Below are positions 21,574 through 32,926 of a stretch of 64,000 nucleotides of DNA, in pieces. The stretch is from Dactylococcopsis salina PCC 8305. GTDB taxonomy: Bacteria > Cyanobacteriota > Cyanobacteriia > Cyanobacteriales > Rubidibacteraceae. Made by a program: the position numbers and the translations under genes. The notes below the pieces were generated by a model, which had not been told where the DNA came from, did not search any database, and saw only the letters and a list, made by a program, of their open reading frames with translations. The stretch's first letter is position 1; each line of letters begins with the position of its first letter. The stretch covers positions 2,935,840 to 2,999,839 of the forward strand of contig NC_019780.1 of assembly GCF_000317615.1 (NCBI RefSeq). Reading direction: 5' to 3'.

Positions 21574-21614
21574 ATTAACTAAAAATTAATCTAAAAATAA
21601 CCTGATCTTAACCA
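21574..21614 (+). promoter_or_regulatory. Four-unit Pho box (SphR/PhoB-type operator)
   Basis: Four 8-bp units with exact 3-bp spacers, hence an 11-bp period: ATTAACTA at 21574, ATTAATCT at 21585, AATAACCT at 21596, CTTAACCA at 21607. The published cyanobacterial Pho-box consensus is tandem PyTTAAPyPy(T/A) units with 3-bp spacing. The box is about 195 bases upstream of the giant phosphohydrolase gene and 27 bases from the divergent GT39 start. Binding is inferred, not shown. Confidence 0.75.
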
Positions 21615-21809
21615 AATAAGTACAACAATTTAAGAAAGACTGTGATAAGTTGATTGGGGATGAAAAAAGTGTAATAAATTCACCCTAATCTAACTTTTTA
21701 GCTTTTTAGATTCCTCTTAATTATCCTTGACAAATCCCACAAGGTATGAATCGAAGAGTGTAGAAAGAAAGCGTCAAGAAGTAGATACCTAACTTAAGGA
21801 GGTTTTTTA

Positions 21810-24800
21810 ATGGCGAATCTCAATGAGATTGTGATTAGCACGCCAAGTGCAGACTTTGAGTTTGTAGAGATTATCGGTGATGCAGGAGAAGATATTTCTA
21901 ACCTGTCATTGTTGGAAATAACAAACACAGGTGCAATTGATGATGTAATTTCTTTTGCAGAACAAAGTTTGGGTGATGACGGGTTTTTTCTCGCATCTAG
22001 CCCAGCAGCAGAAGCACAGTATGGTGTGACAGGCGACCTGCAAATTGCGGACAATACCTTTACGAATAGCACTAGCACTTATTTATTAGTCGAAAACTTT
22101 ACAGGTGCATCTGGAGACGATTTAGACACCGAGGATGATGGAACATTAGATGATCCTACGCCTTGGAGCGCGATCGTGGATCAGATTGCATTTATAGAAA
22201 ATGATGGGGAAACCACCTACGGAACTCCTGCTTTTGGGCCAACAGAAGATGGCTTTCTGCCAGTGGGTGCATTTCGTGACGAAAATGGAGACTTCCAAAC
22301 CTATGTGTTTGACACGGTAGGAGACGAAGCCACTCCCGAAGGTGAACCCCTACAAGCAACCACAGTCTCCATTATGGAGATTCAAGGAGAAGGTCACACT
22401 TCCCCCTTAGAAGGTCAGTTAGTCAGTACCACCGGAGTTGTCACTGCGGTTGATAGCAATGGCTTCTATTTCCAAGACCCCACAGGAGATGATAATGTTG
22501 CCACCTCTGACGCGCTGTTTGTCTTCACAGGAGGTGAACCCACTGTTTCCGTTGGTAACAGCATTACCGTTGAAGGAACAGTCAGCGAGTTTTTCCCAGG
22601 AGGAGAAGGAACTGGAAACCTCTCTACGACTCAACTTTCAGGGGCAACCGTAACGGTTGATGAACCCTCAGTTGATCTTCCGAGTGCAACAATTATCGGT
22701 GAAGGTGGACGCATTCCCCCAAGTGAAAATATTGATGATGATGCGTTTGCTGAATTTAATCCCACAGAAGCGGGAATTGATTTCTTTGAGTCTTTAGAAG
22801 GAATGCTCGTGACAGCACAAGAAGCGCTTGCTGTCGCGCCGACTAATCGTTTTGGGGAAATCTTTACAGTCACTGATAACGGTGCAAATGCGACAGTAAT
22901 CAGCGATCGCGGCACCTTAAACATTAGTCCCGACGACTTTAACCCCGAAAAAGTCCAAATTAATTCTAGAAGCGGGATTCTGCCCGATTTTGACTTTCCA
23001 GACGTTAACGTTGGTGCTTCTTTAGGAGATGTCACTGGTGTTATCGGTTATAGCTTTGGCAACTTTGAAGTGTATCCCACTGAGCCTTTTGCAGTTACTG
23101 AGTCCACATTAGAAGCAGAAACCACTAATATCACCAGTGGGGAAGAGCGACTCACTTTTGCCAGTTACAATGTCCTGAACCTCGATCCAGTGGTGGAAGA
23201 TGTTAATTCGATCGATCCCACTGAAGATGATCCAGAAGGGGAGATTGATGATGATCTCGGAAACGGTCGCTTTACCGCCATTTCTGAACAAATCGTCAAT
23301 AACTTAAATGCCCCTGATATCATTGCCTTACAGGAAATTCAAGACAATGACGGGGCGGAACTAACTGATGTAGGAGATGCCGATGTCACCTTACAAACCT
23401 TAGTGGATTCGATCGCGGAAGCAGGTGGCCCCACCTACGAATTTATCGACACCCCTGGCATTGTTCCCGCCTTTATTGATGAAGACGGTGATCTGGTTCG
23501 TCCTACAGGCGGGCAACCGGGCGGAAATATTCGTAACGCCTTCTTATACAACAGCGATCGCGTTGATTTAGTAGAAGAGTCAGTACAACCTTTAACTGAT
23601 CCGCAAGATCAAGCCACCAACCCTGATAATCCCTTCTTTGGGGGACGGATTCCTCTTGCAGCCACCTTTGAATTTAGCGGCGAGGAAATCACCCTCGTTA
23701 ACAACCATCTCTCCTCAAAAGGCGGCAGTTCACCGATTTTAGGCGTAGAACAACCTTTTGAAGAACGCCAAGAAGAGGTGGAAGTTAACGGTTCTCTCGA
23801 TGAACGTACTGTTCAAGCCAACGCAGTCAATGACTTTATTAACAACATTCTTACCGACGATCCCAACGCTAACGTTGTCGCTCTCGGTGACTTCAACGAA
23901 TTTGAGTTTGTTTCCCCAGTGGAAACCATCCTTGGCGAAAATCTAACCAACCTTACCGACACCATTGGTGAAAATGAGCGTTACAGCTTCATTTTTCAAG
24001 GTAACTCTCAATCTTTGGATCATATTCTCGTTAGTAATAATTTGGCAGCACAATCAGAGTTTGACATTGCTCATACTAATGCCGAGTTTGCCGAACCAGC
24101 TAGCGACCATGAACCACTTTTAGCCAGTGTAAACCTTACGAGCAATACTGAAAATATGGCAATTAATCTCAATCCGATCGGAACATTTACAACGGGTGTT
24201 TTTGATGAAGGAGCAGCGGAAATTGTTGCTTACGATGCGGGAACCGAACGCTTATTCGTAATCAATTCGAATGCGGTAACTGTTGACATCCTTGATGTTA
24301 GCGACCCCACCAACCCAACTTTAGTTAGTCAAATTGATGCCACTGAGTTTGGCGATGGTGCAAACAGTCTCGCTGTTCAAGATGGCGTTGTTGCTGTTGC
24401 CATTGAAGCTGATACAGTGGATGGGAATGGTCAAGTGGTCTTCTTTGATACCGATGGCAATGTCCAAAACAGTGTCGAAGTTGGTATCTTACCAGATATG
24501 GTGACGTTTAGCCCTGATGGCACTAAAGTTTTAGTGGCAAACGAAGGTCAACCCAATGAGGAATATACCGTTGATCCAGAAGGTTCAGTAAGCATCATCG
24601 ACATTTCGGGTGGCGTGGAAAACCTCACTCAAGAGAATGTCACCAATGCTGGCTTTACCGCCTTCAACGATCAGCAAGTAGCTCTGGAAAATCGTGGCTT
24701 ACGCATCTTTGGCCCCAATGCAACGGTTGCTCAAGACGTAGAACCCGAATATATCACGGTTAATGCTGACAGTACCACTGCTTATGTTTCTCTCCAAGAA

Positions 24801-27800
24801 AACAATGCCTTTGCAGTTGTTGATCTCGAAAGTGCGGAAGTTTTAGATATTCTTCCCCTCGGTTTCAAAGACCACAGCAAAGGTTTACCCACCCTAGAAG
24901 AGTTCGACTTGAACGATGATATCGCGTCTCAGTTCTTACAAACTCCTGATGGTACTTCTGAGATTCCTCTCGGTGGACTCTCTGGTTTATTCTTTGAAGG
25001 CGAAGCAGACAACGGTAACTTCCAATTTATCACCCACCCCGATCGCGGCCCCGATTTAGGTAGCCGTGACACAGACGGAGACGGTGAAAATGATGTTCGT
25101 ACCTTTGAACTGCCAGACTTCCAACCCAGTCTCTATCGCTTTGAACTCAACCCAGAAAACGGAGACATTACCTTTACTGAAACCATTGGCTTAACTCGCG
25201 CTGATGGCACTCCTCTGACTGGCTTACCTAACTTAGCGGGAGATGATAGTGGTCGTCAAGGGGAAAATGCTGACGGCGAACTGCTCGACTTTGATCCCTT
25301 TGGTGCTGATATGGAAGGCGTGGTTGTTGCTGAAGATGGCACATTCTGGACAGTGGATGAATATCGTCCTTCTATCTATCACTTTGAAGCAGATGGCACG
25401 TTGATCGATCGATATGTTCCCACAGGAACCGATCCTGATACCACCGATGACGTAACCTTTGGCAGTGAAACCCTCCCTGAAGCCTACCTTAGCGCACGGG
25501 ATAATCGCGGATTTGAAGCGATCGCGCAAGACCCCGAAAGCGGTACGGTTTACGCCTTCATTCAAACCCCACTTGGTAACGATGGCACAGGAGAATTTAA
25601 CCGCGACGTTTCTGATAACTCCCAAGTCATCCGTATTTTAGGCATTAATCCCACAGACGGCACCCCCGTTGAAGAATACGTCTATCTCCTCGAAAAACCA
25701 GCATTCAGCGAAGGTAACATCGACAAAATCGGGGCAGCCACCTACACAGGTGAAGGTAAATTCACTGTCATTGAGCGTGACTCTGGCACAGAATCCACCA
25801 GTAACAAAGTTGTTTATGAAATCAACCTTTCTGGTGCAACCAACCTTTTAGCCGAAGATGCTCCCAGTCTCGACGGAACAACCTTAGAGCAACTCAGTGG
25901 TGATGAATTAGCAGAAGCTGGCATTCGCGCCGTCAGTAAAACCGAAGTCACCAACCTACCCTCTTTAGGTTTCCTACCCAGCGACAAACCCGAAGGAATT
26001 GCTCAACTTCCCGATGGTTCGCTTGCTGTCATCAACGACAACGACTTTGAACCCGAAAACAAAGACACCAGCCTCGGTATTATCTCCTTCGATCAGAGTA
26101 ACGAACTGGATGCCAGTGATGAAGACGGCATTAACTTCCAGAATATCCCCTCTTTTGGAATGTTACAGCCAGACTCCATTGATAGCTTTGAAGCCAATGG
26201 ACAAACCTTTATTCTCACCGCCAACGAAGGGGATGCACGGGACTATGCTGGCTTCAGCGAAGAAGTTAACCTTGATGACTTATTTGCCGATGGTACGCCC
26301 ATCACAGCAACCTTAAGCGGTGATCAACAAGTGCCAGCCGTCACGACTGATGCAAGCGGAACCGCTACCATGCGTCTCAATGAAGCAGGAGATGCTCTTG
26401 ATTACGAAGTTACTGTTACAGGTTTAGACTTTGGCGGTTTTGGTGACATTGAAACCCAAACCGATGACACAGGCGATGATGTAGTGGGAATGCACATCCA
26501 TAATGCCGCACGCGGTGAAAATGGCGGCGTGGTCTTTGGTGTGATCAGTCCTGCTCAAGATGATGACGATCGCGCGTTCACCCTCAATGACGATGGTTCT
26601 GTCACTATCACAGGGACTTGGGACAGTGACGATGCTGATGGCAGTCTCAGCAACTTTGTCGAAGACATTAACAGCGCTGACTTTGAACAAGACCTCGATC
26701 TTTATTGGAATATCCATACCGAGGAATTTGGCTCTGGGGAAATTCGCGGTCAGTTAGTACGAGGAGAACAAGAAGACTTCCTCGACCTCAACGATGATAA
26801 CGAACCAGATACATCTACCACTGAACTCGCCTCTGGAGAAACCATTGCTGATCTTCTAGCGGAAGACCGTTTAGGAGAACTAGACTTTACCAGCGTCACT
26901 GGTGACATTGATGGCGATGGCTTAATCGAGCAACTCCATAACTACGGCGGTCGTTCCTTCTCTATCTTTGATGAGTTCGGTAACTTAGTCTTTGATAGCG
27001 GTGATCAATTTGAAAAAATTATCGCTCAACAAATTGAAGATGGTATTCTACCGCAAGAAGCGTTCAATAACGACAACGACGAAAACGACTTCGACTCTCG
27101 CAGCGATGCCAAAGGCCCCGAACCCGAAGCGATTACAGTGGGTGAAGTTGACGGCACGCCTTACGCCTTCATTGGTTTAGAGCGCGTTGGCGGAATCATG
27201 GTCTATAACGTCTCTAATCCCACTGAGCCTGAGTTTGTTCAATATATCAACAACCGCGACTTCTCCGTTCAATTTGATACGGATGCAGAAGGCGATCCCA
27301 GTCCCACGCAAGAGCAACTCGCTCAAGCAGGTGACTTAGGACCCGAAGGCTTCAAGTTCATTCCTGCTGAAGAAAGTCCCAATGGTGAGCCTTTATTAGC
27401 TGTGGGTAACGAAGTCAGTGGCACAACCACAGTTTACAGCGTTGCTGAGATGGTGGAAGAACCAGAAGTTCCTGAAGCAACCAACGAATTAGAACTGTCT
27501 GTAGCAGGTACATTTACAACTGGTATCTTTGATGAAGGAGCAGCGGAAATCGTTGCTTACGATGCGGGAACGGAACAATTATTTGTTATCAACTCTGATG
27601 CCACCACAGTTGATATCCTTGATGTCAGTGATCCCACCAACCCCAGTCGTGTTTCTCAAATTGATGCCACTCAGTTTGGTGATGGTGCAAACAGTGTCGC
27701 TGTTCAAGATGGCGTTGTTGCTGTCGCCATTGAAGGAGAAGCCGTTGACGAACGAGGACAAGTGGTTTTCTTAGACACTGATGGCAACGAGCTTGCCAGT

Positions 27801-30800
27801 GTCCAAGCCGGTTTCCTTCCTGATTTTGTCACCTTTACCCCTGATGGCTCGAAAGTCTTAGTGGCAAACGAAGGCGAACCCAACGAAGCATATACCGTTG
27901 ACCCCGAAGGCTCTGTGAGCATCATTGACATTTCTGGCGAGGTAGAAAACCTCACTCAAGACAATGTCACCGAAGCTGGATTCACCGAGTTTAATGACCA
28001 ACAAGCAGAACTCGAAGACAACGGCGTTCGCATCTTTGGCCCTGAAGCCAGCGTTGCTGAGGACTTAGAACCCGAATCCGTAGCCGTTAGCCCTGATAGC
28101 AGCACCGCTTACGTTGCTCTACAGGAAAATAACGCCCTAGCAGTGGTTGACCTTGAAAACAGTGAAGTCACCGATATTTTTGCTCTCGGTTTCAAAGACC
28201 ACAGCCTGCCTGAAAACGCTCTCGATGCCAGCAATGACGATGGTCTGAATATCCAAACCATTCCTTCTTTCGGAATGCTTCAACCCGATGCCATTGATGT
28301 GTTTGAAGTGGATGGGGAAAACTTCATCATTACTCCCAACGAAGGAGATGGTCGTGATTATGATGGCTTCAGCGAAGAAGCGAATCTTGATGACTTACTG
28401 GCAGACGGGTTGCTTGACCTTAATGATGATAATGAGCCAGATACTTCCACTACTGAACTTGCTTCAGGAGAAACCATCGAAGAACTGCTTGCTGATGACC
28501 GACTCGGCAAACTCGACTTCACCAGTGCCACTGGTGACAATGATGATGATGGCTTAATTGAGCAACTGCATAACTTTGGCGGTCGTTCCTTCTCCATCTT
28601 TAATGAATCTGGCGAACTCGTTTTTGATAGCGGAGATGACTTTGAGCGCATTACTGCCGAGTTAATTCCAGATAATTTCAACTCTAATAATGACGAAAAT
28701 GATTCCTTTGATTCTCGTAGCGATAACAAAGGACCCGAACCAGAAGCGGTTGTTACTGGCGAAGTCAATGGTGATCTGTTTGCGTTTATTGGCTTAGAAC
28801 GGGTTGGCGGTATTATGGTGTATAACATCAATAATCCCAGCGAACCTGAGTTTGTCCAATATCTCAACAATCGTGACTTTGAGGTAGAAGCTCAACTCGA
28901 AGATGGTAGCACGAATCCTGATGTGGAGGATTTGGGACCCGAAGGATTAGAATTTATTCCTGCTGAAGATAGCCCCAGTGGTGAGCCTTTATTAGCTGTG
29001 GGTAACGAAGTCAGTGGCACAACCACAGTTTACAATGTTGATCTTCCTCAAGAAGAAGGATTTACCTTAGAACTATTGCACGCCGCCGACCAAGAAGGCG
29101 GTATTGCGGCGGTTAGCGATGCGCCACGCTTCTCGGCGGTGCTGAATGCTTTACGGGATGAAGATTTAGGGGCTGATGGTGAAGCAGACAATACCCTTAC
29201 TCTTTCTTCTGGTGATGCTTTCATTCCAGGGGTGTTCTATCAAGGTTCAGAAGGCGCATTTGGTAGCCCTGGCATTGGTGATATTCAGATTCAAAATGAG
29301 TTAGGCTTCCAGGCGATCGCGTTCGGTAATCATGAGTTTGACTTTGGTACAGAAGTCTTAGCGAATCTGATTGATGGTTCTGCTGAAGGAGAGATTCTTG
29401 GTTCTGACTTTACGGGTGCTAATTTCCCTTACCTTTCTACCAACCTTAACTTCTCTGGTGATGAAAACCTCGCCCCTCTGGAAGTGGAAGGCGGTCAAGC
29501 CCCCCAACCGAACTCGGTTACTTCTTCGACGGTCATCGATGTGAACGGTGAAGAAATTGGCGTTGTTGGCGCAACCACTCCCACCTTAGCCAGCATCTCC
29601 TCCCCTGACGGTGTTACGGCTTCTCCCAGTCCCTTCGATAGTTCTCCCACGAGCGACCAATTGGATGCTTTAGCAGCAGAAATTCAAACCGAAGTGGATG
29701 CGCTGTTGGATGCGAATCAAGATATGAACAAGGTGGTCTTGTTAGCGCATATGCAGCAAATCAGTATTGAGCAAGAACTGGCTCAACGCTTAGAAAATGT
29801 TGACATTATCGTCGGTGGTGGTTCTAATACCCGCCTCTTTGACGAAAACGATCGAGTCCGTGATGGTGACAGTGACCAAGGCGACTATCCCCAATTCTTT
29901 ACCAATGCGGGCGGCACACAAACGGCTTTAGTTAACACTGATGGCAGTTACAAATATGTCGGTCGTTTAGTCCTCGACTTTGATAGCGAAGGGAACATCA
30001 TTCCAGACAGCTACGATGCAGACGTTTCCGGTGCGTTTGCAACGGATGCTCAAGGTGTGGCTGATCTCAATGCTGAGGATTTAGTTGATCCAGAAGTCCA
30101 AGAAATCGCCGACGCGATCGAGCAAGAAATCATTGCCGCCGAGTCCAATGTGTTTGGTCTCTCTGATGTCTTCCTCAATGGCAATCGCTCTGGCGGTCCC
30201 TTAGACGGGGTTCGCACCCAAGAAACCAACCTCGGTAACTTGACTGCGGATGCAAACTTAGCAGCAGCGCAGGAAGCCGATGAAGAGGTGGTTCTTTCCT
30301 TGAAAAACGGTGGCGGTATTCGCGCTTCCATTGGCGAACTTATCGTTCCTCCTGGCGGCTCGGAAGCAGTACGCAACCCGAACCAAGAACTGGTTGACAG
30401 CGAAGGCAATCTCATTAAACCCGAAGGTGGCATCAGCGAAGTTGACATTGATAATGCCTTATCCTTCAACAATGATCTAGCACTGCTGACTCTCACTAAA
30501 GAGGAAATTGTTGATCTCCTTGAACACGGAGTTAGTGCAATTCCTGAAGTTGACGGTCAGTTCCCGCAAATTGGTGGGGCTGAGTTCTCCTTCGACCCAG
30601 AATTACCAGCCGGCGATCGCATTGTCGAAGCAAGCATTGTGGATGATGATGGCAACACAGTTGCTGAGTTAGTTTCCGAGGGCGAAATTGCTGGCGATGC
30701 AACCGAAACCTTCCGCGTTGTCACTCTCGGTTTCCTTGCTCGTCCTCGTTTTGACGCTGAAGGTAACTTCACAGGTGGCGGTGACGGCTATCCCTTCCCT

Positions 30801-31283
30801 AACCTCAATACTGATCCACGAGAAGGGGAATTTGAAGACCCCAATGTTACTGCCCAACTCGGTGATCCAGACGTGATCGATCGCGTTGACTTCACTATCT
30901 TAAGTGAAGAAGGAACCCGAACCGGTGCAGCGCAGTTTAAGGATGATGGCACAGAACAAGATGCTCTTGCAGAATACTTAGCCGCCAACTTCCCCGCCGA
31001 TGACGATCCCAATACTCCTGTCTTCTCTCAAGAAGATACTCCAGCTACGGAAGATACGCGCATTGTTAACCTTGCCTTAGACGATGAACCTACAGAATTA
31101 GCTTCTGACTTTAACGGCGATGATATCGTTAACTTGGATGACCTTGGCATCTTTGCTGCTGCCTTTGGTGCAACCGAGGAAGATGATGACTTCAATGCCA
31201 GTGCTGATTTAACTGGCGATGGATTAGTCAACCTTGACGATCTTGGCATCTTTGCCTCTGAGTTTGGTTTAACTCTCGGTTAA
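21810..31283 (+). CDS. Giant multidomain exoenzyme: nuclease, phytase-like, 5'-nucleotidase, dockerin
   Basis: 3157 residues; SD AAGGAGG at 21796-21802. Domain order (approximate residues): lamin-tail-like 1-180; OB-fold 185-430; endonuclease/exonuclease/phosphatase 445-776 with Glu509 (ALQEIQDND), His633 (NNHLSS), Asp694/Asn696 (LGDFNEF), Asp766/His767 (SDHEPL); choice-of-anchor I beta-propeller 790-1886, interrupted by a phytase-like esterase domain (about 1023-1428) and a CHRD domain (about 1496-1656); a second, uninterrupted anchor I copy 1897-2409; metallophosphatase/5'-nucleotidase 2414-3060 (SSGDAFIPG, FGNHEFDFG, LKNGGGIRAS); dockerin type I 3100-3157 (two DFNGDDIVNLDDLG-like Ca-binding loops). 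In the nucleotidase the usual GHTH motif reads GGGSNT. No signal peptide is visible, suggesting type I or other non-Sec export. Strongly acidic. Expected role: releasing phosphate from extracellular DNA, organic phosphates and nucleotides, in keeping with the Pho box. Confidence 0.88.
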   Translation: MANLNEIVISTPSADFEFVEIIGDAGEDISNLSLLEITNTGAIDDVISFAEQSLGDDGFFLASSPAAEAQYGVTGDLQIADNTFTNSTSTYLLVENFTGASGDDLDTEDDGTLDDPTPWSAIVDQIAFIENDGETTYGTPAFGPTEDGFLPVGAFRDENGDFQTYVFDTVGDEATPEGEPLQATTVSIMEIQGEGHTSPLEGQLVSTTGVVTAVDSNGFYFQDPTGDDNVATSDALFVFTGGEPTVSVGNSITVEGTVSEFFPGGEGTGNLSTTQLSGATVTVDEPSVDLPSATIIGEGGRIPPSENIDDDAFAEFNPTEAGIDFFESLEGMLVTAQEALAVAPTNRFGEIFTVTDNGANATVISDRGTLNISPDDFNPEKVQINSRSGILPDFDFPDVNVGASLGDVTGVIGYSFGNFEVYPTEPFAVTESTLEAETTNITSGEERLTFASYNVLNLDPVVEDVNSIDPTEDDPEGEIDDDLGNGRFTAISEQIVNNLNAPDIIALQEIQDNDGAELTDVGDADVTLQTLVDSIAEAGGPTYEFIDTPGIVPAFIDEDGDLVRPTGGQPGGNIRNAFLYNSDRVDLVEESVQPLTDPQDQATNPDNPFFGGRIPLAATFEFSGEEITLVNNHLSSKGGSSPILGVEQPFEERQEEVEVNGSLDERTVQANAVNDFINNILTDDPNANVVALGDFNEFEFVSPVETILGENLTNLTDTIGENERYSFIFQGNSQSLDHILVSNNLAAQSEFDIAHTNAEFAEPASDHEPLLASVNLTSNTENMAINLNPIGTFTTGVFDEGAAEIVAYDAGTERLFVINSNAVTVDILDVSDPTNPTLVSQIDATEFGDGANSLAVQDGVVAVAIEADTVDGNGQVVFFDTDGNVQNSVEVGILPDMVTFSPDGTKVLVANEGQPNEEYTVDPEGSVSIIDISGGVENLTQENVTNAGFTAFNDQQVALENRGLRIFGPNATVAQDVEPEYITVNADSTTAYVSLQENNAFAVVDLESAEVLDILPLGFKDHSKGLPTLEEFDLNDDIASQFLQTPDGTSEIPLGGLSGLFFEGEADNGNFQFITHPDRGPDLGSRDTDGDGENDVRTFELPDFQPSLYRFELNPENGDITFTETIGLTRADGTPLTGLPNLAGDDSGRQGENADGELLDFDPFGADMEGVVVAEDGTFWTVDEYRPSIYHFEADGTLIDRYVPTGTDPDTTDDVTFGSETLPEAYLSARDNRGFEAIAQDPESGTVYAFIQTPLGNDGTGEFNRDVSDNSQVIRILGINPTDGTPVEEYVYLLEKPAFSEGNIDKIGAATYTGEGKFTVIERDSGTESTSNKVVYEINLSGATNLLAEDAPSLDGTTLEQLSGDELAEAGIRAVSKTEVTNLPSLGFLPSDKPEGIAQLPDGSLAVINDNDFEPENKDTSLGIISFDQSNELDASDEDGINFQNIPSFGMLQPDSIDSFEANGQTFILTANEGDARDYAGFSEEVNLDDLFADGTPITATLSGDQQVPAVTTDASGTATMRLNEAGDALDYEVTVTGLDFGGFGDIETQTDDTGDDVVGMHIHNAARGENGGVVFGVISPAQDDDDRAFTLNDDGSVTITGTWDSDDADGSLSNFVEDINSADFEQDLDLYWNIHTEEFGSGEIRGQLVRGEQEDFLDLNDDNEPDTSTTELASGETIADLLAEDRLGELDFTSVTGDIDGDGLIEQLHNYGGRSFSIFDEFGNLVFDSGDQFEKIIAQQIEDGILPQEAFNNDNDENDFDSRSDAKGPEPEAITVGEVDGTPYAFIGLERVGGIMVYNVSNPTEPEFVQYINNRDFSVQFDTDAEGDPSPTQEQLAQAGDLGPEGFKFIPAEESPNGEPLLAVGNEVSGTTTVYSVAEMVEEPEVPEATNELELSVAGTFTTGIFDEGAAEIVAYDAGTEQLFVINSDATTVDILDVSDPTNPSRVSQIDATQFGDGANSVAVQDGVVAVAIEGEAVDERGQVVFLDTDGNELASVQAGFLPDFVTFTPDGSKVLVANEGEPNEAYTVDPEGSVSIIDISGEVENLTQDNVTEAGFTEFNDQQAELEDNGVRIFGPEASVAEDLEPESVAVSPDSSTAYVALQENNALAVVDLENSEVTDIFALGFKDHSLPENALDASNDDGLNIQTIPSFGMLQPDAIDVFEVDGENFIITPNEGDGRDYDGFSEEANLDDLLADGLLDLNDDNEPDTSTTELASGETIEELLADDRLGKLDFTSATGDNDDDGLIEQLHNFGGRSFSIFNESGELVFDSGDDFERITAELIPDNFNSNNDENDSFDSRSDNKGPEPEAVVTGEVNGDLFAFIGLERVGGIMVYNINNPSEPEFVQYLNNRDFEVEAQLEDGSTNPDVEDLGPEGLEFIPAEDSPSGEPLLAVGNEVSGTTTVYNVDLPQEEGFTLELLHAADQEGGIAAVSDAPRFSAVLNALRDEDLGADGEADNTLTLSSGDAFIPGVFYQGSEGAFGSPGIGDIQIQNELGFQAIAFGNHEFDFGTEVLANLIDGSAEGEILGSDFTGANFPYLSTNLNFSGDENLAPLEVEGGQAPQPNSVTSSTVIDVNGEEIGVVGATTPTLASISSPDGVTASPSPFDSSPTSDQLDALAAEIQTEVDALLDANQDMNKVVLLAHMQQISIEQELAQRLENVDIIVGGGSNTRLFDENDRVRDGDSDQGDYPQFFTNAGGTQTALVNTDGSYKYVGRLVLDFDSEGNIIPDSYDADVSGAFATDAQGVADLNAEDLVDPEVQEIADAIEQEIIAAESNVFGLSDVFLNGNRSGGPLDGVRTQETNLGNLTADANLAAAQEADEEVVLSLKNGGGIRASIGELIVPPGGSEAVRNPNQELVDSEGNLIKPEGGISEVDIDNALSFNNDLALLTLTKEEIVDLLEHGVSAIPEVDGQFPQIGGAEFSFDPELPAGDRIVEASIVDDDGNTVAELVSEGEIAGDATETFRVVTLGFLARPRFDAEGNFTGGGDGYPFPNLNTDPREGEFEDPNVTAQLGDPDVIDRVDFTILSEEGTRTGAAQFKDDGTEQDALAEYLAANFPADDDPNTPVFSQEDTPATEDTRIVNLALDDEPTELASDFNGDDIVNLDDLGIFAAAFGATEEDDDFNASADLTGDGLVNLDDLGIFASEFGLTLG

Positions 31284-31318: not shown

Positions 31319-31346
31319 TCCCCCCTCATTTTTGAGGGGGTTTTTA
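31319..31346 (+). terminator. Rho-independent terminator of the giant gene
   Basis: CCCCCTCA-TTTT-TGAGGGGG stem-loop followed directly by TTTTT, 36 bases after the stop codon. Confidence 0.88.
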
Positions 31347-31377: not shown

Positions 31378-31418
31378 CTAAACCAAAAATTAACCGAATC
31401 TTTACTATTTTTTTATCA
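31378..31418 (+). promoter_or_regulatory. Degenerate Pho-box-like repeats
   Basis: Four 8-mers on an 11-bp period: CTAAACCA (31378), ATTAACCG (31389), CTTTACTA (31400), TTTTATCA (31411). The first two fit the cyanobacterial Pho-box consensus well; the last two are weak. It lies about 400 bases upstream of the RTX/dockerin gene, with a repeat element in between. Confidence 0.4.
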
Positions 31419-31813: not shown

Positions 31814-32926
31814 ATGGCAGAGTTATTTGTTACCAGTAATGGTGAAACTTTAGACGGCACAAACGAAAATGATATTTTAGAAGCAACAGGCTTTAGTGGG
31901 ACAATTCTCAATGGTTTAGAAGGAAATGACGAACTCTTTGCGGGAACTGATGGGACTCTCAACGGCGGTGTCGGCGATGATATCTTAGATGCAACTGTTG
32001 GTGGCGGTGGCAATACTCTAAACGGTGAAGGGGGAAACGATACGCTTTTCGGTAAAGAGAGTGATATCCTTGATGCTGGAGAAGGGACAGACCGCTTATT
32101 TACCGATGGGGCTGGCGACAATACTTATACTGGAGGTGCTGGATCAGATCAATTCTGGTTAGCAGCATCGGACATTCCCAACATTCCTAATAGAGTCACT
32201 GATTTTAGTCAGGGCGAAGATGTTTTGGGTATTGGTGGCTTAGATGGTACGGTTGATAGCTTTGCGGATGTTACTGTTACTGAAGCTGGTGGCAATACTA
32301 CCGTTGCGATCGAAAATGGGGATACTCCTTTAGCTACTTTAGAGGGCTTTACAGGAGAACTAACCGCTGATGATTTCGCGATTGTTAGTGCTGATGAACC
32401 CCCTGTTGATGAAGCTCCGACGGTGGAAGAGGCTACCTTTGAGGTAGAAGAAGAAAGTGCTGTCGGAACGGAAGTTGGTACAGTAACAGCGACTGATGCT
32501 GAAGGAGATGATTTAACTTTCGCTATCAGTGGTGATTTAGATGTGGATGGTGATGGTGAAGCTGCCTTCGCGATCGATCAGACTGGATTAATTACTGTTA
32601 ATGATAGTGATGACATTGATTTTGAAACTCAACAGAGTTTTGATTTTGAAGTCACCGCAGAGGATACCAACGGTAATATCGGTACGGGAAATGTCACTGT
32701 TGATTTAATCAATGATCCTGCTGATGATCCTGAACCTGGAGAGTTACAATCCGATTTTAACGGCGATGGTCTTGTTAACTTAAATGACCTTGGTGTATTT
32801 GCAGCTGCATTTGGCACCAGTGATGGCGATGATAACTTTAATGCTAGCGCTGATCTCACAGGAGACGGTTTAGTTAATTTGAATGACCTTGGCATTTTTG
32901 CTTCCGAATTTGGTGCTTCTGCTTAA
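31814..32926 (+). CDS. RTX / cadherin-like / dockerin exoprotein
   Basis: 370 residues, acidic, no signal peptide. Residues about 15-120: hemolysin-type calcium-binding repeats (LNGLEGNDELFAG, LNGEGGNDTLFG, GGAGSDQFWL). Residues about 125-195: RTX-trailing region (FSQGEDVLGIGG). Residues about 200-310: one cadherin-like repeat (VEEESAVGTEVGTVTATDAEGDDLTFAISG, IDFETQQSFDFEVTAEDTNGN). Residues about 315-370: dockerin type I with two Ca loops almost identical to those ending the giant protein (DFNGDGLVNLNDLG, ASADLTGDGLVNLNDLG). RTX repeats suggest type I secretion and Ca-dependent folding. No catalytic domain is seen; it may be a structural or adhesive partner of the giant enzyme, which is inference from the shared module and adjacency. 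Confidence 0.8.
   Translation: MAELFVTSNGETLDGTNENDILEATGFSGTILNGLEGNDELFAGTDGTLNGGVGDDILDATVGGGGNTLNGEGGNDTLFGKESDILDAGEGTDRLFTDGAGDNTYTGGAGSDQFWLAASDIPNIPNRVTDFSQGEDVLGIGGLDGTVDSFADVTVTEAGGNTTVAIENGDTPLATLEGFTGELTADDFAIVSADEPPVDEAPTVEEATFEVEEESAVGTEVGTVTATDAEGDDLTFAISGDLDVDGDGEAAFAIDQTGLITVNDSDDIDFETQQSFDFEVTAEDTNGNIGTGNVTVDLINDPADDPEPGELQSDFNGDGLVNLNDLGVFAAAFGTSDGDDNFNASADLTGDGLVNLNDLGIFASEFGASA

Follow-up and report, generated by a model that had tools for sequence, protein, structure and literature searches.

A probable phosphate-starvation exoenzyme that joins a NucH-like nuclease to an atypical PhoA-type phosphatase in Dactylococcopsis salina

One gene of Dactylococcopsis salina PCC 8305 probably encodes a phosphate-starvation exoenzyme in which a NucH/ExeM-like nuclease is fused to an atypical alkaline phosphatase of the PhoA type, the latter composed of propellers and a 5′-nucleotidase. 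We base this reading on the sequence of a 64,000-nucleotide stretch of the genome (the window), whose genes, signals and modules are given below in window positions and all lie on the forward strand. A preliminary description had proposed that a single secreted chain takes DNA to nucleotides and then to phosphate; this remains the best-supported reading, and it is strengthened by Pho boxes upstream of the gene and by a match to the PhoA of Synechococcus elongatus, whereas the combination is not unique, the unusual nucleotidase motif is no defect, and the dockerin and phytase labels are weak. Two points go beyond that description: by sequence comparison the propeller and nucleotidase modules are cyanobacterial PhoA, and the promoter region supplies evidence of its own.

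Results

A single uninterrupted frame

The frame of the fusion (21810–31283), delimited by frame reading and domain searches, encodes 3157 residues from an ATG at 21810 to the stop at 31283, with no internal stop and no obvious Sec signal; direct reading places a Shine-Dalgarno-like AAGGAGG upstream (21796–21802) and a hairpin with a T run, resembling an intrinsic terminator, downstream (31320–31346). The 3157-residue chain first reported is therefore borne out. We consider the probability negligible that the chain is an artefact of assembly or annotation uniting two genes: Synechocystis PCC 6803 does have phoA and nucH as two genes within an operon (PMC1906773), but the frame here is uninterrupted in a genome that forms a single contig (3,781,008 bases), an equivalent 3121-aa frame is present in the same-genus genome G005, and a remnant of the fusion persists in the sister genome G001. 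Nuclease, propeller and nucleotidase of the fusion's types are each confined to this gene; a genome-wide search of the host found no NucH-type nuclease, 5′-nucleotidase or choice-of-anchor-I propeller outside it. Domain searches, which the preliminary description had named as a check on its modules, placed the nuclease, phytase-like, CHRD, propeller and 5_nucleotid_C domains above their Pfam cut-offs.

The nuclease and the route of export

Residues 1–180 (21810–22349) have no Pfam match; a homologous module stands ahead of the nuclease in several ExeM-like proteins of alphaproteobacteria and cyanobacteria, and position and resemblance suggest that they are lamin-tail-like (LTD-like). The ExeM/NucH-like EEP nuclease follows at residues 187–775 (22368–24134). 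It scores 35.4 bits against Exo_endo_phos (PF03372; gathering score 24.5) and aligns over its full length with PDB entries 9sf9 and 9sf8 (E ~1e-77). Its catalytic motifs are YN, QEIQDND, NHLSSK, GDFNEFEF and SDHEPL, and YN, E-QDN, NHLSSK, GDFN-FEF and SDH-PL are kept in the alignment, in keeping with the earlier statement that the catalytic residues are present. With the NCBIfam ExeM/NucH model NF033681 the module scores 182.6 bits over 507 of 546 positions, below the cut-off of 300; judged by sequence, it is a NucH-like homologue and not a formal member of that family.

No hydrophobic stretch is visible by eye in the N-terminus (MANLNEIVISTPSADFEF), in line with the reported lack of a Sec signal. 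A type I exporter is the likeliest exit route, given this N-terminus, the RTX-type and DUF4114 tails of relatives from the same genus or family, the ABC transporter near a related gene of PCC 7002, and HlyD-like proteins in the host genome, whose matches are below the family cut-off. Regarding the tails, three related loci (L107, L109 and L110) end in RTX-type sequence, G005 ends in DUF4114 and the fusion ends in a dockerin-like tail. The PCC 7002 gene, on plasmid pAQ7 (L002), is annotated ExeM/NucH, carries a nucleotidase module, and has close to it genes for a peptidylprolyl isomerase and for an ABC transporter with a peptidase domain; this neighbourhood is possibly a dedicated export cluster.

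A duplicated propeller with two inserted domains

The choice-of-anchor-I family is recognized with scores that reach the curated cut-offs (PF22494, 816.7 bits; NF038117, 1102 bits), and the propeller is present twice: copy 1, found by Pfam/NCBIfam and copy alignment, spans residues ~781–1890 (24150–27479) and is interrupted twice, and copy 2, found by copy alignment and its beta-propeller fold, spans residues 1895–2410 (27492–29039), of which Pfam and NCBIfam cover 1909–2410. The copies are 76% identical over 515 aligned residues, and copy 1 retains 33 of the 34 invariant family residues that were checked. Alignment of the two copies reveals two clean insertions in copy 1: a phytase-like domain (residues 1024–1430; 24879–26099; PF13449, 148.7 bits) between GFKDHS and NELDASDEDG, and a CHRD domain (residues 1496–1656; 26295–26777; PF07452, 94.1 bits) between LFADG and FLDLNDDNEPD, both scores reaching the Pfam gathering thresholds. 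The phytase-like and CHRD domains are thus insertions into a duplicated propeller, not beads on a string; the two propellers of the preliminary description are confirmed, with the amendment that the first is interrupted.

AlphaFold models were of modest confidence (pLDDT 67.9 for propeller 2 plus nucleotidase, 71.3 for the interrupted propeller 1) and are used here for the folds alone. In fold searches the former model confirmed the propeller and 5′-nucleotidase folds, and the latter gave generic multi-propeller matches.

The phytase-like insertion and the propeller duplication may allow a broader set of phosphate esters to be exploited. It is nevertheless improbable that the protein is a broad organic-phosphate scavenger with phytate or other sugar phosphates as its main substrate and DNA a secondary one: the PF13449 domain scores strongly and is a recurrent insertion in choice-of-anchor-I propellers, but "phytase-like" is a Pfam name and no proof of phytase activity, which weakens the earlier "phytase" label, and relatives that carry the nuclease often lack the domain.

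The nucleotidase module and its identity with atypical PhoA

The next module is a 5′-nucleotidase at residues 2412–2990 (29043–30779; PF02872, 60.3 bits, above the Pfam cut-off) that is delimited by alignment with CD73 and the Thermus 5′-nucleotidase (2z1a), with relatives and with S. elongatus PhoA. It has GGGSN at the GGHSN of CD73 and DxE at the DxH of CD73, where we take the position of DxH and the metal-ligand roles to be those of CD73/UshA; in place of the full classical bimetal ligand set of these enzymes (DxH plus GGH) it therefore carries DxE and GGG. The NCBIfam nucleotidase equivalog cut-offs are not reached by the protein, and the two changed ligands leave the metal use and substrate of the module uncertain.

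The changes are not peculiar to this protein. Nearly all of the 38 sequences compared have DxE and [AG]GGS (L122 and L088 are divergent exceptions), and GD, GNHEFD and H are conserved. We therefore reject a degenerate nucleotidase: the GGGSNT motif singled out in the preliminary description is present, but it is a family-wide signature, shared with S. elongatus PhoA, rather than a defect.

The comparison that decides the link between the module pair and PhoA is with a locus (L185) in a genome of 2,696,255 bases. It carries exactly the Pho boxes published for S. elongatus syc0163_d phoA (TTTAACTAtttCATAATCTattCTCAATCT), and the 1355-aa protein behind them contains LLHFSDQEAG, GNHEFD and AGGSNT together with 5′-nucleotidase and choice-of-anchor-I domains. 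On the strength of these Pho boxes, both domains and the DxE and AGGSNT motifs, the sequence identifies the Synechococcus atypical PhoA as the fusion's nucleotidase and propeller modules with their order reversed. In a Synechocystis-like PhoA (L113, 1403 aa), whose Pho boxes are close to those published for sll0654, propeller and nucleotidase stand in the fusion's own order. The fusion itself combines nucleotidase and propeller with DxE and [AG]GGSN, the features by which we define the cyanobacterial atypical PhoA module.

S. elongatus PhoA (syc0163_d) was reported to be an alkaline phosphatase by Ray et al. (1991), as that work is described in papers citing it. This bears on whether the phosphatase half could be catalytically dead, leaving a secreted DNase on a calcium-binding surface scaffold, which we regard as unlikely. 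The two classical histidine ligands are E and G here, and propellers are often binding domains; the same changes, however, occur in nearly all relatives alongside the conserved D, GD, GNHEFD and H, they occur in a PhoA that the literature, so far as the citing papers convey it, treats as an alkaline phosphatase, and the host genome has no other copy of either module.

Pho boxes upstream of the fusion gene

At 21574–21614 we predict four SphR Pho boxes in tandem, each 3 bp from the next (ATTAACTA aaa ATTAATCT aaa AATAACCT gat CTTAACCA); on a matrix that we built from published sites (PMC1906773) the array scores 25.97. This is the top four-box site on both strands of the window, and dinucleotide shuffling of the intergenic region, repeated 2000 times, never reached its score. 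On sequence grounds a gene is assigned to the SphR Pho regulon when three or more 8-bp boxes, in tandem and 3 bp apart, lie upstream of it, and here there are four. Scores of at least 15.3 were found upstream of 14 of 17 relatives' genes, whereas controls had a median of 3.0 and reached 9.7 at the 90th percentile; the difference from AT-rich control ORFs has p = 6e-7, a value that serves only as a guide given the non-independence of the relatives. Across the whole genome a strict Pho-box pattern matched six times, versus four for a reversed control pattern, an excess too small to be informative. A search of the host genome for an individual SphR gave 26 PhoB-like matches, none above the PhoB cut-off.

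The phoA and nucH genes of Synechocystis share an operon that SphR regulates through published Pho boxes (PMC1906773). Given that operon and the Pho boxes of the fusion, the fusion gene looks like phoA and nucH joined under the same kind of promoter.

The dockerin-like tail and the neighbouring gene

The chain ends in a paired calcium-loop tail (residues 3096–3155; 31095–31274) that resembles the dockerin 2y3n_B (phmmer, 6e-7) but scores 15.0 bits against the Pfam dockerin type I cut-off of 22.9. No cohesin above the cut-off was found in the host genome, where the matches were weak and sub-threshold. The dockerin of the preliminary description is thus retained as a resemblance and no further. 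That such a tail recruits the enzyme to a cohesin scaffold, as part of a cellulosome-like phosphatase assembly, is highly improbable: the calcium-loop motif is dockerin-like and recurs in the product of the neighbouring gene and in a further ORF, but neither the tail nor any cohesin passes its cut-off, and relatives have RTX-type or DUF4114 tails instead. We rejected this assembly on the missing cohesin.

The next gene encodes a 370-aa protein (31814–32926) in which sequence and profile comparison show RTX-type repeats and a cadherin domain; its dockerin-like tail and the fusion's are 77% identical. Upstream of this gene lies a second Pho-box array (31378–31418, score 19.64), the second-ranked four-box site of the window, equalled in none of 2000 shuffles and absent from ten shuffled windows; this suggests a second phosphate-regulated extracellular protein. 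A third protein, a 736-aa frame elsewhere in the genome (L128, G000:C1:2119723-2119911), carries the same tail on a domain that by eye looks glycosidase-type. Its presence on three proteins suggests that the tail is a shared C-terminal tag. Between the two neighbouring genes, the intergenic segment 31500–31680 has a palindromic 'gagacgttccatggaacgtctc' core and resembles a small mobile or repeat element.

Fused relatives and module shuffling

The preliminary description knew of no described enzyme with the full combination. We reject the view that it is unique: the same-genus G005/L106 protein (3121 aa) has every catalytic module, namely the same nuclease, a first propeller that is likewise interrupted, a second one and the nucleotidase, and ends in DUF4114, and other relatives shuffle the order. 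G003/L109, also of the genus, has nuclease, propeller and nucleotidase without insertions. At the G001/L107 locus the Pho boxes are intact; of the nuclease, a short initial piece and the final ~55 residues persist in different frames while most of the domain is missing (remnant at L107:6180-6460), and the rest of the fusion follows. Another G001 gene (L108) encodes nuclease plus propeller. Further orders, seen in the loci compared here and not a census, are nuclease-nucleotidase, propeller-nuclease, propeller-nucleotidase-nuclease and nucleotidase-propeller-nuclease, as well as a propeller with phytase-like and CHRD insertions followed by a nucleotidase. Comparison of L106 with the fusion gave only ~40% identity in the nucleotidase and ~74% in the interrupted propeller, hinting at module exchange within the genus. 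The literature that we searched yielded no description of a fused NucH-PhoA protein, which is not proof of absence.

Discussion

Our analysis suggests the following course of events: under low phosphate, SphR would bind the four predicted Pho boxes and switch the gene on; the protein, which has no obvious Sec signal, would be exported, most likely through a type I exporter; outside, the nuclease would break DNA or RNA down to nucleotides; and the PhoA-like part would then free phosphate for uptake, both activities being those expected from homology. The frame, its modules and insertions, the conserved motifs, the recurring Pho boxes and the relatives are read directly from sequence, whereas we infer induction, export, what each module does and any gain from tethering them. 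Two gene products that model cyanobacteria make separately and co-regulate would be united here in a single chain, probably a secreted one, whose promoter carries the same kind of signal, and among relatives these modules are swapped, reordered and lost. With the fusion one can ask directly whether tethering the two steps aids phosphate capture from free DNA.

The cyanobacterial PhoA has an altered, family-wide metal site whose chemistry appears unsettled. The PhoA-aty of dinoflagellates and Emiliania reportedly resembles a portion of the atypical PhoA of cyanobacteria (PMC4548154), and Ca, Mg and Mn, unlike Zn, activate recombinant ACAAP (PMC6723241). We entertain, tentatively and as the less probable case, that the choice-of-anchor-I propeller is itself the catalytic unit of a calcium-dependent alkaline phosphatase (PhoA-aty). 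If it were, the chain would combine a nuclease with two propeller phosphatases and with a nucleotidase whose metal site is altered, and perhaps with a phytase-like site as well. Four or five active sites would then work in series outside the cell, possibly with no need of zinc.

Among known systems, the part that PhoA-aty is reported to share with cyanobacterial PhoA is presumably the propeller. ExeM of Shewanella, a sugar-unspecific endonuclease that requires Ca and Mg or Mn (PMC6085458), shares the LTD, OB-like region and EEP nuclease of the ExeM/NucH family, but differs in its length of 871 aa, its signal peptide and its putative membrane anchor. Fused relatives (G005/L106, 3121 aa; G003/L109; SU3/L075; Rivularia L034; Skermanella L001; Salipiger L040; G117/L119) likewise hold nuclease, propeller and nucleotidase in one chain, but most have another order or fewer modules, G005 alone has CHRD, and the tails of G005 (DUF4114) and G003 (RTX-type) differ from the dockerin-like tail of the fusion. 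The S. elongatus atypical PhoA has the 5′-nucleotidase and choice-of-anchor-I domains, DxE, [AG]GGSN, tandem Pho boxes and no obvious Sec signal; it differs in its length of 1355 aa, in its reversed module order, and in having neither the nuclease, the second propeller nor the phytase-like and CHRD insertions. In the Synechocystis phoA-nucH operon (sll0654-sll0656) SphR co-regulates the same two activities (PMC1906773), there as two proteins and in D. salina as one chain.
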